DNA of 43,686 nt, taken from the NCBI GenBank assembly GCA_021792405.1, contig JAJYUU010000017.1, positions 1-43,686 of the forward strand. Reading direction: 5' to 3'. Each line of letters starts with the position of its first letter. Position 1 is the first letter of the stretch. The DNA is from Actinomycetes bacterium (lineage in GTDB: Bacteria; Actinomycetota; Actinomycetes; Streptosporangiales; Streptosporangiaceae). Below, in pieces: positions 30,953 to 37,430 of this stretch. The translations under genes were made by a program, and so were the position numbers. Under the pieces are notes generated by a model, which was not told the origin of the DNA, did not search any database, and saw nothing but the letters and a program-made list of their open reading frames with translations.

Positions 30953-32581
30953 ATGCTGCTCGACAGCGTGGTACGGACCTCGGCGGCCATCGCCGCCACG
31001 CCGGCCCGGCTCGCCAAGATCGACCACATCGCCGGCCTGCTGCGCAGCGTCCCGCCCGGCGAGGTCACGGTCGCCGTCGCGTTCCTGTCCGGTGACCTCA
31101 CCCAGCGCCAGATCGGCGTCGGCTACGCCGCATTGACTGACCTGCTTGGCGGATACGGGCGGCGCGATCCGGAGCCGCCTGGCCTGGCGCCGCCGCCGGA
31201 AGCACCGCAGCTCACGCTGACCGAGACCGATCGCGCGCTGGGCCAGATCGGCGCGCTGGCAGGCCAGGGATCGCAGGCCGAGCGGCGGCGGCTGCTGGCT
31301 GACCTGCTGGGCCTGGCCACCGGGCGAGAGCGGGAGTTCCTGGTGCGGCTGCTGGCAGGGGACTTGCGGCAGGGCGCACTGGACGGAGTGATGACGGACG
31401 CGGTCGCCAGGGCAGCGGGCGTTCCCGCCGCCGAAGTCCGGCGCGCCTATCAGCTCAGCGGATCACTCCCGGCCGCCGCGGCCACAGCACTCGGCGCTTC
31501 CGGCGCCGATGCCGCGATCGGTGCGCTCCGGGCAGTGGCACTGCAGGTCGGCCGGCCGGTCCGGCCGATGCTGGCCGCTTCCGCGCCGTCGGTCGCCGCC
31601 GCGCTGGAGCGGATCAGCCCGGCCGCGGTGGAGTGGAAGGTGGACGGCATCCGGGTGCAGGTACACCGGCAGGGCTCGGCGGTCCGCGTCTTCACCCGGA
31701 CCCTGGATGACATCACCGTCCGGGTGCCTGAACTGGTCCGGGCCGCGCTGACGCTGAACGTGACGGCGGCCGTGCTGGACGGAGAGGCGGTCGCGCTGCG
31801 CCCCGACGGCCGGCCACTGCCGTTCCAGGTCACCTCGGCTCGCGCGGCCAGCCAGTCGACCGCGAGCGACCAGCCTGGCCAGGTGCCGCTCGCGCTGTTC
31901 CTTTTCGACCTGCTGCACGTCGACGGGACGGATCTGCTCGAGCATCCGGCAGCGGATCGCTATGCCAGGCTCGCCGCGGTCACGCCCGCCGATCTGGTGA
32001 TCCCGCGGCTGGTCACGGCCGACGAGGCGGCCGCCGTCCGATTTTTCAGCACGGCCATCGAGCGCGGCCACGAGGGCGTGGTGATGAAGTCGCTGGACGC
32101 TCCGTACGGAGCCGGGCGCCGGGGCAGCGAGTGGATCAAGGTCAAGCCGCGGCACACGCTGGACCTGCTGGTCCTTGCGGCGGAGTGGGGTCACGGCCGG
32201 CGTCAGGGCTGGCTGTCCAACCTGCACCTGGGCGCGCGCGACCCGGCCACCGGCCAGGCCGTGATGCTCGGCAAGACGTTCAAGGGCCTTACCGACGCAC
32301 TGCTCGCCTGGCAGACGCAGCGGCTGCTCGAACTGGCCGATCCGCCGCACGATCCGGCAGCCAGCCTCCGGCGGGGGGTCGTGCGGGTCCGGCCGGAACT
32401 CGTCGTGGAGATCGCCTTCGACGGCGTGCAGGCGAGTACCAGGTATCCGGGCGGCGTGACGCTGCGGTTCGCTCGGGTGCTGCGCTACCGGCCGGACAAG
32501 AATCCGGCAGAGGCCGACACCATCGACGCCGTCCGTGCGCTGTGGCCGGGCGGTGCCCCAGGGATATTCCTGGCACACTAG
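30953..32581 (+). CDS. ATP-dependent DNA ligase (LigB-like)
   Basis: Active-site VEWKVDGIRVQVHR, ARYADLLHVDG-like LFDLLHVDGTDLLEHPAADRY, HEGVVMKSLDAPYGAGRRGSEWIKVKP. Confidence 0.93.
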   Translation: MLLDSVVRTSAAIAATPARLAKIDHIAGLLRSVPPGEVTVAVAFLSGDLTQRQIGVGYAALTDLLGGYGRRDPEPPGLAPPPEAPQLTLTETDRALGQIGALAGQGSQAERRRLLADLLGLATGREREFLVRLLAGDLRQGALDGVMTDAVARAAGVPAAEVRRAYQLSGSLPAAAATALGASGADAAIGALRAVALQVGRPVRPMLAASAPSVAAALERISPAAVEWKVDGIRVQVHRQGSAVRVFTRTLDDITVRVPELVRAALTLNVTAAVLDGEAVALRPDGRPLPFQVTSARAASQSTASDQPGQVPLALFLFDLLHVDGTDLLEHPAADRYARLAAVTPADLVIPRLVTADEAAAVRFFSTAIERGHEGVVMKSLDAPYGAGRRGSEWIKVKPRHTLDLLVLAAEWGHGRRQGWLSNLHLGARDPATGQAVMLGKTFKGLTDALLAWQTQRLLELADPPHDPAASLRRGVVRVRPELVVEIAFDGVQASTRYPGGVTLRFARVLRYRPDKNPAEADTIDAVRALWPGGAPGIFLAH

Positions 32582-32642: not shown

Positions 32643-34346
32643 GTGCGAGCGGCATGGCTGGATGACGACGGCGCCTGGCGCACCACGCTGCGCGGGCGGC
32701 AGGTACTTGCCGATCCGAGGATCAACAAGGGCACCGCGTTCAGCGACGAGGAACGGGCCGCCCTCGGCCTGGTCGGCCTCATCCCGGCCGGGCACCTCAC
32801 GCTTGACCAGCAGGCCAGCCGTATCTACGCGCAGTTCCTCGGGCAGTCATCCGACCTGGCCCGCAATGTCCTGCTGAACGAGCTGCACGATCGCAACGAA
32901 GTGCTGTACTACCGGGTTCTGGCTGATCACCTCAGCGAGATGCTGCCGGTGATCTACACGCCCACAGTCGGCCAGGCGATCGAGCATTACAGCCACGAGT
33001 ACCGGCGGCCGCGCGGGATCTACCTGTCTGTCGACGAGCCGGGCCAGATCGAGCGGTCGCTGCGCGCGTTCGGACTGCAGGAAGACGACGTCGACCTGAT
33101 CGTGGCCACCGATGCCGGCGCGCTTCTGGGCATCGGTGACTGGGGCGTGGGAGGCATGAGCATCGCCGTCGGCAAGCTGGCCGTGTACACGGCCGCGGCC
33201 GGCATCGACCCTGGCCGGTCGCTTCCGGTCATGCTGGACGTCGGAACCGACCGCCAGGCGCTTCTCGACGACCCGATGTACATCGGCAACCGGCATCCGC
33301 GGGTAGCGGCCGACGAGTACGACGCGTTCCTGGCCGCCTTCATCGCCGCGGTCGGCACGGTCTTCCCGAAAGCGCTCTTGCACTGGGAGGACATGGGTAC
33401 TGCCAACGCACGCCGCCTGCTGACCCAGTACCGGGACAAGCTGCCCAGCTTCAACGACGACATCCAGGGTACCGGCGCGATCAACCTCGCCGCGGTGCTC
33501 GCGGCGGTGAAGGCCACCGGCACCGAACTGGCTGAGCACCGCGTCGTCATCTTCGGGGCCGGCTCGGCCGGCACCGGGATCGCCGACCAGCTGACGGCGG
33601 CGCTGACCGCCGACGGCCTGCCCGCGCAGCGGGCCAGAGCCCGGTTCTGGGCGGTTGACCGGCACGGCCTAGTCGTGGCCGGCGATGACGGGCTTACCGC
33701 CGGCCAGCGCAGATACGGCCGCGAACGGGCCGAAGTAGCAGACTGGCAGCGCGATCCGGTACTCGGCGGTATCCCGCTCGCCGAGGTCGTCCGCCGGGTG
33801 CACCCGACCGTGCTGATCGGCACCTCGGCTCGCGGCGGCGCGTTCACGCAGGAGATAGTCAAGGACATGGCTGCGCATGTCGAGCGGCCGATCATCATGC
33901 CGCTGTCCAATCCGACTGAGCTCTCCGAGGCCTGGCCCGCCGACCTGATCGAATGGACCGGCGGCCGTGCCCTGGTGGCGGCCGGCAGCCCGTTCCCGCC
34001 CATCGACTACGCCGGGACCAGGTATGCCATCGGCCAGGCGAACAACGCGCTGGTATTCCCCGGCCTCGGGCTCGGTGCCATCACCGCGCGCGCGTCCAGG
34101 ATCACCGACGGCATGCTCAGCGCCGCGGCCCATGCAGTGGCACGCCTGGTGGACGCCGGCACGCCCGGCGCCCCGCTGCTGCCGGAGATGGCGGCGCTGC
34201 GCGACACCTCACTCGCGGTCGCGGTCGCGGTCGCCGAGGCGGCCGCCGCCGACGGCGTGGCCGGCCGCGAACTCGCCGGCGACCTGCGGGATCGGGTAGC
34301 CGCGGCGATGTGGCAGCCGGTCTACCGCCCCGTCCGCCCGGCTTGA
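32643..34346 (+). CDS. NAD-dependent malic enzyme
   Basis: RNVLLNELHDRNEVLYYRVLADHLSEMLPVIYTPTVGQA, QYRDKLPSFNDDIQGTGAI, VIFGAGSAGTGIADQL, PLSNPTELSEA. Confidence 0.95.
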   Translation: MRAAWLDDDGAWRTTLRGRQVLADPRINKGTAFSDEERAALGLVGLIPAGHLTLDQQASRIYAQFLGQSSDLARNVLLNELHDRNEVLYYRVLADHLSEMLPVIYTPTVGQAIEHYSHEYRRPRGIYLSVDEPGQIERSLRAFGLQEDDVDLIVATDAGALLGIGDWGVGGMSIAVGKLAVYTAAAGIDPGRSLPVMLDVGTDRQALLDDPMYIGNRHPRVAADEYDAFLAAFIAAVGTVFPKALLHWEDMGTANARRLLTQYRDKLPSFNDDIQGTGAINLAAVLAAVKATGTELAEHRVVIFGAGSAGTGIADQLTAALTADGLPAQRARARFWAVDRHGLVVAGDDGLTAGQRRYGRERAEVADWQRDPVLGGIPLAEVVRRVHPTVLIGTSARGGAFTQEIVKDMAAHVERPIIMPLSNPTELSEAWPADLIEWTGGRALVAAGSPFPPIDYAGTRYAIGQANNALVFPGLGLGAITARASRITDGMLSAAAHAVARLVDAGTPGAPLLPEMAALRDTSLAVAVAVAEAAAADGVAGRELAGDLRDRVAAAMWQPVYRPVRPA

Positions 34347-34536
34347 GCTGCTTGCCCGCGATGGGCACGGCGTCACGAAGCTCTTTGCCGGGCCTGGTTA
34401 CGACGAGGCGCCACCCAGGCCGGCAAGAACGTCGCGGAGCCCTCAGCGAGGCGGTAGCCAGCGCCTGACCAACTCCGTTATGCCAGCCAGTCTGGCCCCA
34501 CGCCACTCTGTCAGGCGACGGGCGCAGGATCATTCG

Positions 34537-35559
34537 TCAGGCTCCGGCAGCCATTACCCTGACCGCCGCGATCGCCGCCGCCCGGACCGCCGAGATCCCG
34601 GCCCGTCCGCTGGCCCAGTCCTGCGACAGTACGACGACGAGCAGTTCATGGCCGTCGCACTCGACGACGCCGATGCTGCCGACCACGAAACGGCCGTGCA
34701 GCGGCAGATAGCCGTCGGCGACCGCGTAGTGAGTGCGGGACGTGGCTGCGGCCGGCACGCCCCAGCGCGGGGCCGCGGCCCTCACTTTGGCCATCAGGCC
34801 CAGCTCGTACGTGCGGTCGGCGAGATCCAGCGCGGAATGGCTGGTTGCCAGGTCAGCCAGCAGCTGCAACTGGTCGGCAACCGTCGTCCTGGTCATGCTC
34901 CACGCGCTGCCGGGTGCGGGGATCGTGTGCCGGAGCCGCAGCGCGCGGTCGCTCTCGGCCAGGCCTGTACTCTGCCCGATCGCCTGCCAGAGCCTGCCCG
35001 CCGCGGCGCCGCTCCCGTTGTCGATCATCTCAGCTGCCAGGCCGGCATCCAGGTGGCTGAGCCGCCTGCCAGCCCGATGATCCTGGTACAGCAAAGCGGC
35101 CAGGATGTCCGCCGCGGCGATACCGCCGGCATCGTAATGACTGGCCGCGCGGAACAGCGCCGTGGCGCCGGTCGCGGTGTCGGTTACGCCGACCGACAGC
35201 TGAGCCTTTCGTGTCCCGAGCGCGGCACGCAGGGCAGCGGCCAGCCGGGCGTTGAGCGCCTTTGCCTGAAGGGCGGGCGTAGTTCCGGCGGGGAGCTTGC
35301 GCAGGCTGTGCATCCCGATTGGATCCGTCCGCGTACTCGCGGCCACCGACTGTCCCAGTGCCGGACCCGGGCCCGCTCTGGCAGCCAGCACGCTGACTCC
35401 GACGACGAACGCCGCCATGAGGGCGAACGTGACGACGAACGCCAGCCGTTCGGCCACGCGCAGGCTCCCGGCATGGGCAGGCGCCCGCCTCACTTCGAAC
35501 TCCGGAGCACAGCTTCCCCCGCTTGCCCGTGTCACCCCGTCCAGGCGTGCCTTGCGCAC
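34537..35559 (-). CDS. Membrane-anchored beta-lactamase-fold (class A-like) protein, probably catalytically inactive
   Basis: N-terminal TM AFVVTFALMAAFVVGVSVLAA; overall pattern of serine-hydrolase family (HYDAGGIAAADILAALLYQDHRAGRRLS...AAEMIDNGSGAAAGRLWQAIG...YAVADGYLPL...VGSIGVVECDGHELLVVVLS). Confidence 0.78.
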   Translation of the reverse strand: MRKARLDGVTRASGGSCAPEFEVRRAPAHAGSLRVAERLAFVVTFALMAAFVVGVSVLAARAGPGPALGQSVAASTRTDPIGMHSLRKLPAGTTPALQAKALNARLAAALRAALGTRKAQLSVGVTDTATGATALFRAASHYDAGGIAAADILAALLYQDHRAGRRLSHLDAGLAAEMIDNGSGAAAGRLWQAIGQSTGLAESDRALRLRHTIPAPGSAWSMTRTTVADQLQLLADLATSHSALDLADRTYELGLMAKVRAAAPRWGVPAAATSRTHYAVADGYLPLHGRFVVGSIGVVECDGHELLVVVLSQDWASGRAGISAVRAAAIAAVRVMAAGA

Positions 35560-35646
35560 TGCCGCTGCGTTTGCCGCTGTTCGGTCGCTTTAGCAGTGTC
35601 AGGTACCGACGGAGGTTTATCGATTAATTTCCCCCGCTATTTTCAA

Positions 35647-35669
35647 GCTATTGACGACACGACAATAGC
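35647..35669. promoter_or_regulatory. Inverted repeat in AT-rich intergenic region
   Basis: GCTATTG-acgacacga-CAATAGC, perfect 7-bp arms, between divergent genes at 35559 (-) and ~35908 (+). Confidence 0.5.
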
Positions 35670-35907
35670 AGTGGCCCAAAATAGCTCTCTGGTACCTCTG
35701 AGCAGGGTATTCAAACCGTTATACGCTCGGCCCGAGCGCAGCAGAGAATAGTTGTCAGGGCATTTACCATTTTCCGCCGGACTATTACCTGGCCCGGTCG
35801 GCGGTGCCGCCAGCAGTCGCCGGCCCGCCTTCCGACCCATGTGACATGGGATGCGACCCGTCAGGTACTGGCCGCAACGCCGGCCGGCCGGGGCTACCCT
35901 GGGCACG

Positions 35908-37430
35908 TGTCATCACCCGCCGAGGCCGGCCTGCGGCCACCCCGATCCGTTGCAGCTGCGGTAGGCCGGGTCAGGCAGGCCGACAGTATCTGGTGGCTCG
36001 TCCTCGTGGCGGCTGCCTTCACCGTGGCACAACTCGCGGTTGTGGTGCCAAGGCTCGGGCTGAGCTGGGACGAGACCGTCTACATCAGCCAGGTCAGCAT
36101 TCACGCCCCGGCCGCGTATTTCGACCCGGCGCGAGCGCGCGGGATTCCGCTGCTGGTCGCGCCGGTCACGCTGCTTACGTCGTCGGTCCTGGCGGTGCGG
36201 ATCTACCTGGCCATTGCCTCCGGCGTAGCCCTGTTCCTGGCGTTGCTGTGCTGGCGCGGCCTGCGGCCGGCCTGGCAGCTTGCGCTCGCCGGGGTGATGT
36301 TCGCCGGGCTGTGGACCACTCTGTACTACGGCCCGCAGGCCATGCCGGACCTGTGGGTGGCGTTCAGTTCGCTGGCGGCCGTCGGCCTGTTCCTGCGAGC
36401 CGTTGGCGCTCAGGCTGGCGCAGCAGCCAGCGCTACGGCGGCCAGCGATTCGCCCGCGCGGCCGGCCCGCTGGGGTACGCTGACCGGGCTCGCCGTGTGC
36501 ATGGCGATCGCCGCGCTGGTCCGGCCTGGCGATGCCCTGTACCTGGTCGCGGCATTGTGTGTCGCCGCCATCTCGGTGCGGCCGTGGCGACGCTGGCAGG
36601 TGCTCGCGGCCGTCGTCGGCGGCTCAGCAGCCGGCGCCGCCGAGTGGATCATCGAAGCTTACGTCAGCTTCGGCGGGCCGCTTCAGCGGTTGCACGAAGC
36701 GAGCGCCGAGCAGAACGGCTTCGGCTTCCATCTCGGTTTCTGGGACGAGTTGCGCGCCGTCAACGGCCCCACGCTGTGCCGGCCTTGCACGGTCGGCTTC
36801 CGGTACCCCGAACTGAGCCTGTGGTGGCTCGCCTTGCCGGTCCTGGTCATACTCGGCGCCTACGCCGCTCGCCGTGCCGGACGGCTGGCATCCTCGGTGC
36901 TCGCCTCGGCGTGCGGCTTCGCCCTCGCCTTCCAGTACCTGTTCCTCATCGACTATGCGGCACCGCGATTCCTGCTGCCCGCATACGCCCTGGCCGCGAT
37001 CGGCGTCGCCGACGCCATCGGCGGGCTGCTGACTGGCGTTCAGCGCGACTTGCGTGCCCCGGCCACCTTGCTGGTCGCGGTCGTCCTCGGCGTCCAGCTA
37101 CTGATCCAGGCGACCGTGCTCGAGCATCAGGTCACTGAGAAGGTCAGCTTCTTCGGCGACTACACCCGCATCACCGCCGACCTGCGGGCACTCGGCATTC
37201 GCCCGCCTTGCCTGATCAAGGGAAAACAGGACATTCCGGTCGCGTTCTACGCTGGCTGCGCCTCGGCCCCAAGGTTCGCCGTCGGGCAGAAAGCTACCGA
37301 GCCGGTCGCAGTACTGGTGACGCCCGGCCAGCCGCCGCCGGCTTACGCTCGCGGCTGGACCCTGCACGTCCTGCCCGGCATCCGGTCCAAGTTGCTGGCG
37401 GCGAACGCCTATATAGCGCCCCGAGGGTAG
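35908..37430 (+). CDS. Polytopic membrane protein, probable ArnT/PMT-like glycosyltransferase
   Basis: Many TM segments; LGLSWDETVYISQV acidic loop typical of GT-C (WDE) enzymes; GTG start at 35908 proposed inside the 35841 ORF. Confidence 0.72.

Follow-up and report, generated by a model that had tools for sequence, protein, structure and literature searches.

The class A beta-lactamases, with the wider Beta-lactamase2 group of Pfam (PF13354), are recognized by a fold of one alpha/beta and one all-alpha lobe, by an SxxK motif that carries nucleophile and base, and by SDN and K(T/S/N)G motifs. Departures from this pattern have been described in actinobacteria. Cpe (Orf12) of the clavulanic acid cluster has a class A-like domain that shows no beta-lactamase activity and lacks the omega-loop residues, and its SxxK and SDN motifs are kept and are needed in vivo (PMC6478378). 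Table 2 of PMC6273383 lists class A homologues of Streptomyces, SCAT_1418 and SCAT_4581 among them, in which none of the SXXK, SDN, Glu166 and KT/SG motifs was scored as present; they stand there as table entries without functional or orthologue analysis. The protein discussed here can be set beside these Streptomyces homologues by motif scores, and it differs from Cpe, which keeps its catalytic residues and is not a dead enzyme. A limited search of the open-access literature turned up no beta-lactamase-fold pseudoenzyme matching the orthologue series described below.

Our protein is encoded in the window, by which we mean the whole 43,686-nucleotide stretch of DNA that was analyzed, part of a 5.4-Mb soil actinomycete assembly of 314 contigs that is 98% complete. 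It shares the fold, the motif order and the scaffold segments with the PF13354/class A superfamily and differs from it in having none of SxxK, SDN and K(T/N)G and in missing the Pfam model. In the alignment, the omega-loop stretch that bears the deacylating Glu166 appears short across the protein's subgroup, active relatives included. Because the three defining motifs are absent, the protein, judged by its sequence, is not a class A member as an enzyme and would instead be derived from the Beta-lactamase2/class A group. That it is a pseudoenzyme at all we regard as very probable.

Gene, topology and predicted fold

The open reading frame starts with GTG and encodes 340 residues. Its parts, with the two neighboring genes that matter here, are the following.

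34537-35559, reverse strand: gene of the putative pseudoenzyme (open reading frame; one orthologue, L003, at 91% identity and others at 38-50% with common synteny)
35449-35496, reverse strand: cytoplasmic juxtamembrane motif, residues 22-37 (EVRRAPAHAGSLRVAE), from the alignment and a tail profile search
35380-35448, reverse strand: single transmembrane helix, residues 38-60, a signal anchor with the N terminus inside (AlphaFold2 helix 35-61; hydrophobic stretch)
35275-35379, reverse strand: disordered linker, residues 61-95 (pLDDT below 50 at residues 63-88; 24% mean orthologue identity)
34540-35274, reverse strand: predicted extracytoplasmic domain of class A beta-lactamase fold, residues 96-340 (AlphaFold2, Foldseek, PDB profile search)
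35113-35124, reverse strand: former SxxK, residues 146-149, now GIAA (alignment)
35008-35016, reverse strand: former SDN, residues 182-184, reading GSG in the alignment from which columns were counted
34711-34719, reverse strand: former KNG/KTG, residues 281-283, now ADG (alignment)
32643-34346, forward strand: malic enzyme, a conserved syntenic neighbor that serves only as an anchor gene (family match, synteny)
35841-37430, forward strand: gene for a polytopic membrane protein, transcribed divergently, that by eye is GT-C-like (topology and an SWDE near its N terminus)

In this frame, GC content at the three codon positions is 0.73/0.59/0.82, L003 is open across the same 340 codons, and the position of the gene is kept in seven other genomes of the genus; we therefore take the gene to be real. 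Frame composition and orthologues rule out a random overlapping frame at 34537-35559, and the forward-strand frame that overlaps it (34480-35751) has the weaker codon-position composition. Residues 1-37 form the cytoplasmic tail. Inspection of the orthologue sequences revealed no lipobox and no consistent signal-peptidase site. An earlier note on this DNA had proposed an N-terminal transmembrane segment, which the helix and hydrophobic stretch listed above bear out, and the strings it quoted are all present (YDAGGIAAADIL at residue 142, IDNGSGAAAG at 179 and AVADGYLP at 279).

As a single query, the protein found no match in Pfam, NCBIfam or the PDB, and its homology emerged only with a family profile. 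Pfam Beta-lactamase2 is matched by 24 of the 28 aligned relatives, and the family profile retrieved class A beta-lactamases from the PDB (best E value 8e-10) whose SxxK and SDN motifs align in register. An AlphaFold2 model built on the alignment of 28 sequences has a mean pLDDT of 83, most domain residues scoring above 90, and Foldseek matched it to class A beta-lactamases with probability 1.00 and E of about 1e-12. The orthologue with intact SxxK and KNG (L004/L070), modeled likewise at pLDDT 87, resembles it closely in secondary structure and draws the same kind of matches. Residue equivalence with the active site was judged from the alignment and helix position; in the two models, G146 of the pseudoenzyme and S127 of this orthologue are both placed at the beginning of the corresponding helix. 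The beta-lactamase fold claimed in the earlier note is thus predicted by profile and model alike, and the homology of the protein to the serine beta-lactamase superfamily appears real on both counts.

Loss of the catalytic motifs among the orthologues of the genus

Homologues were sought in 60 relatives, in the nine genomes of the genus, in 343 genomes of the family and in a public genome collection. About 90 different homologues were read, and 30 of the many family matches were read as loci, so that motif loss may also occur elsewhere in the family. Ten proteins share the cytoplasmic motif and form the orthologue group; a tree built without the catalytic columns also groups them (support 85/94), and the genus members have the neighboring membrane-protein gene in common as well. 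The close orthologues with a record title all come from metagenome-assembled genomes, one orthologue (L017) runs off the end of its contig, and no orthologue was found in one of the nine genus genomes (G006, 88% complete).

Outside the orthologue group, the Ser and Lys of SxxK are present in 80 of 80 relatives, as is the Ser of SDN, and the Lys of KNG is found in 79 of 80, the remaining one being gapped across the KNG columns. Within the genus, all eight orthologues lack the Ser, the Lys or both: the SxxK columns read GIAA in the window protein and GIAG, GVVT, DVVT, SVEN, SVEN, NLDE and GLEK in the others. This motif loss is far beyond chance. In the window protein the SDN columns read GSG, and of K(T/N)G only the Gly is kept, so that the absence of all three motifs reported in the earlier note is confirmed by alignment, and the loss of SxxK proves general in the genus, with replacements that differ from one orthologue to the next. 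The two orthologues from other genera both read SIVK. One of them (L004) also has an intact KNG, with SND in place of SDN, and the other (L102) has SSD and NDG. The SVEN orthologues (L006 and L009) keep the Ser and have lost the Lys, and this form keeps SDN; L017 keeps the Lys and has lost the Ser. With opposite halves of the dyad surviving, catalysis must have been lost independently at least twice, barring the regain of a residue.

A Ser/Lys pair placed elsewhere in the active site would have told against a dead enzyme. The domain contains three lysines (100, 118 and 258), two of which are Arg in the 91% identical sister, and none in the domain is conserved across the orthologues. A relocated Ser/Lys pair is therefore unlikely, and we reject it; the catalytic residues have been lost with no substitute set in their place. 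Could the fold instead house a different catalytic mechanism? The polar residues D127, D151, D229, Q230, R265, W266 and S295 are invariant, as a changed enzyme might require, but those counted in active relatives (D229, W266 and S295) are conserved there too and so look like scaffold. With no new invariant nucleophile or base and no conserved lysine, such a changed enzyme seems very improbable.

Conservation, the cytoplasmic tail and selection

Mean pairwise identity among the ten orthologues reaches 61% in the cytoplasmic motif (22-37), against 49% for the domain, 44% for the transmembrane helix and 24% for the linker, and it falls to 22% at SxxK and 25% at SDN. At 49%, the KNG region is better conserved as a whole, largely owing to its Gly and a common N-to-D replacement, and the signs of release are therefore clearest at SxxK and SDN. 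Replacements in the catalytic columns (G/N/D/S; A/G/T/N/E/K; A/M/R/K/Y at the KNG lysine) form no shared set. These columns are as variable as the linker, as is expected where a site is no longer under selection. Constraint is strongest on the cytoplasmic tail and on scaffold segments of the domain, a pattern that the earlier note missed, the scaffold segments being 62-77% identical among orthologues, which argues that the domain is not a mere passenger. The tail motif, R-x-P-x-HAG-x-L-x-x-x-E, is more conserved than the domain, and its P27, H29, A30, G31 and E37 are invariant in all ten proteins.

The earlier note had suggested a binder or sensor of peptidoglycan fragments or beta-lactams, and this part of its reading is not supported. 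Such a protein would bind the old ligand noncovalently in its dead domain and signal through the membrane helix to the tail. The fold, the membrane topology and the conserved cytoplasmic tail would suit a transmembrane sensor, and the scaffold segments adjoining the pocket (TTTxxDQL, RWGV and GSIG) are conserved. The ligand-contacting catalytic columns, however, vary without any common replacement, which argues against a conserved ligand in the pocket, and there is no consistently linked regulator, a two-component pair adjoining only L006. We consider a sensor of this kind unlikely.

The tail itself was followed with a profile of tail plus transmembrane helix, run over the 343 family genomes, and with a second profile that included the sequence from one further genome (G228), run over 395 genomes of the class. 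The first profile returned the ten orthologues at E values of 5e-19 or better and the G228 sequence at E = 1.4e-8; across the family genomes, the cytoplasmic motif occurs only on the orthologue group and this one tail-only frame. The G228 frame (L144 1420-1707, G228:C15) is a 96-codon open stretch that encodes tail and transmembrane helix and then ends, with no trace of a beta-lactamase-fold domain after it in any frame. It lies beside genes for an RDD protein and a DUF2752-like protein, as found next to L004 and L102, with malic enzyme beyond, and these common neighbors identify it as the same locus. G228 is a single metagenome-assembled genome of 74% completeness, and its form could be a remnant, could descend from an ancestral gene with the tail alone, or could reflect loss of the domain. 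Weaker matches were discarded: those read among L145-L148 (E 2e-5 to 1e-3) look like chance transmembrane matches, L147 resembling the transmembrane segment of an ABC-2-like permease and the others having no tail-like frame, and the low-scoring genus matches L130-L133 also look like chance.

A motif that directly precedes a hydrophobic helix might also be an extended signal-peptide element for export or placement, as YSIRK/GxxS is, rather than a partner-binding site. In the genomes searched, however, the motif is confined to one orthologue group and is not shared by other exported proteins, and no consistent cleavage site follows it. We think a signal-peptide element rather unlikely.

Whether the gene is kept or decaying was addressed with substitution rates. 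NG86 dN/dS in three pairs of dead genes is 0.39 (bootstrap 95% 0.24-0.60), 0.29 (0.20-0.39) and 0.33 (0.22-0.49), values that are rough for GC-rich genes and for which other estimators gave lower figures. In each pair the observed amino-acid changes (31, 87 and 67) are fewer than in any of 2000 neutral simulations; the window pair, with its 31, compares with a simulated minimum of 35. Purifying selection after the loss of catalysis is thereby indicated. Between the window and the sister genome of that pair, neighboring genes have dN/dS of 0.14-0.21, so that some relaxation must be granted to the window pair and the constraint on it is real but weaker. A decaying gene, with catalysis redundant, drift toward loss under way and the G228 form as the next stage, would account for this raised ratio, for the diversity of the motif losses, for the genome with only the 5′ part remaining and for the presence of active-looking paralogues such as L002 elsewhere in the source genome. 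Against it, dN/dS is well below 1 with bootstrap limits that exclude 1 in all three pairs, the seven full-length dead genes contain no frameshift or stop, synteny is conserved, and the tail motif is invariant. Decay is accordingly a doubtful explanation. The earlier note had named an orthologue with intact motifs, together with decay of this copy, as grounds for abandoning its view; an orthologue with SIVK and KNG does exist in L004, decay is unsupported, and retention as a pseudoenzyme stands.

Proposed function, neighboring genes and significance

Our preferred reading, which we hold to be probable, is of a bitopic pseudoenzyme that acts mainly through its tail and transmembrane helix with the dead domain as scaffold. 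The ancestor would have been a membrane-anchored serine hydrolase of the Beta-lactamase2 group with a short omega loop and an unusual conserved cytoplasmic tail. Catalysis would then have been abandoned in the window's genus at least twice through different substitutions, while tail, transmembrane helix and folded domain stayed under purifying selection. The present protein would act without chemistry, its tail and helix contacting a membrane or cytoplasmic partner and its dead domain serving outside the cytoplasm as a scaffold or as a face for protein binding; the protein may also bind a ligand away from the old catalytic residues. More tentatively, the working part may be the new PxHAGxLxxxE tail with its helix, the domain having become dispensable in stages, the chemistry first and then, in G228, the whole domain.

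Linkage offers a hint of a partner. The polytopic protein at 35841-37430 (529 residues) has no Pfam or NCBIfam family match, is 61-96% identical across the genus and is encoded near the pseudoenzyme gene on all seven other genus orthologue contigs; it was not found near the orthologues of other genera (L004 and L102). By linkage only, it is a candidate partner.

In a sister genome (G004; L061 11910-15967), the RNA-repair pair Hen1-Pnkp follows immediately downstream of the pseudoenzyme gene, where the window has only about 190 bp (34347-34536); Hen1 was not found elsewhere in the 98% complete source genome, and in some of the other genus members a FUSC-like transporter gene occupies the slot. 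In several genomes of the genus (L066 7318-8151, L063 3060-3896 and L064 1958-2776), though not in the window, a gene for a DUF347 membrane protein separates the pseudoenzyme gene from the GT-C-like one. An ATP-dependent DNA ligase gene (window 30953-32581) adjoins malic enzyme and is conserved near it in G004 and G008, and a short frame at 30517-30948 matches parts of a response-regulator receiver and of a LuxR-type domain, both below Pfam cut-offs, in a gene that may begin upstream or be damaged. In G005 (L063 5210-7068), an OmpR-like response regulator and a histidine kinase directly adjoin the pseudoenzyme; they are not beside the other orthologues examined.

Pseudoenzymes are mostly encountered as end products. 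The orthologue series described here spans intact sites (SIVK/KNG), half-broken ones (SVEN with SDN; SIVK with SSD and NDG) and fully stripped ones, plus a locus without the domain, and it lets one test whether a noncatalytic role preceded the loss of catalysis, the short intracellular motif being the part to test. A homology-based annotation as serine hydrolase or beta-lactamase would mislabel the genus members of this group. If the staged loss of chemistry and then domain proves true, the protein would be a bitopic membrane adaptor of enzymatic origin, seen at successive stages in the loss of its enzyme.
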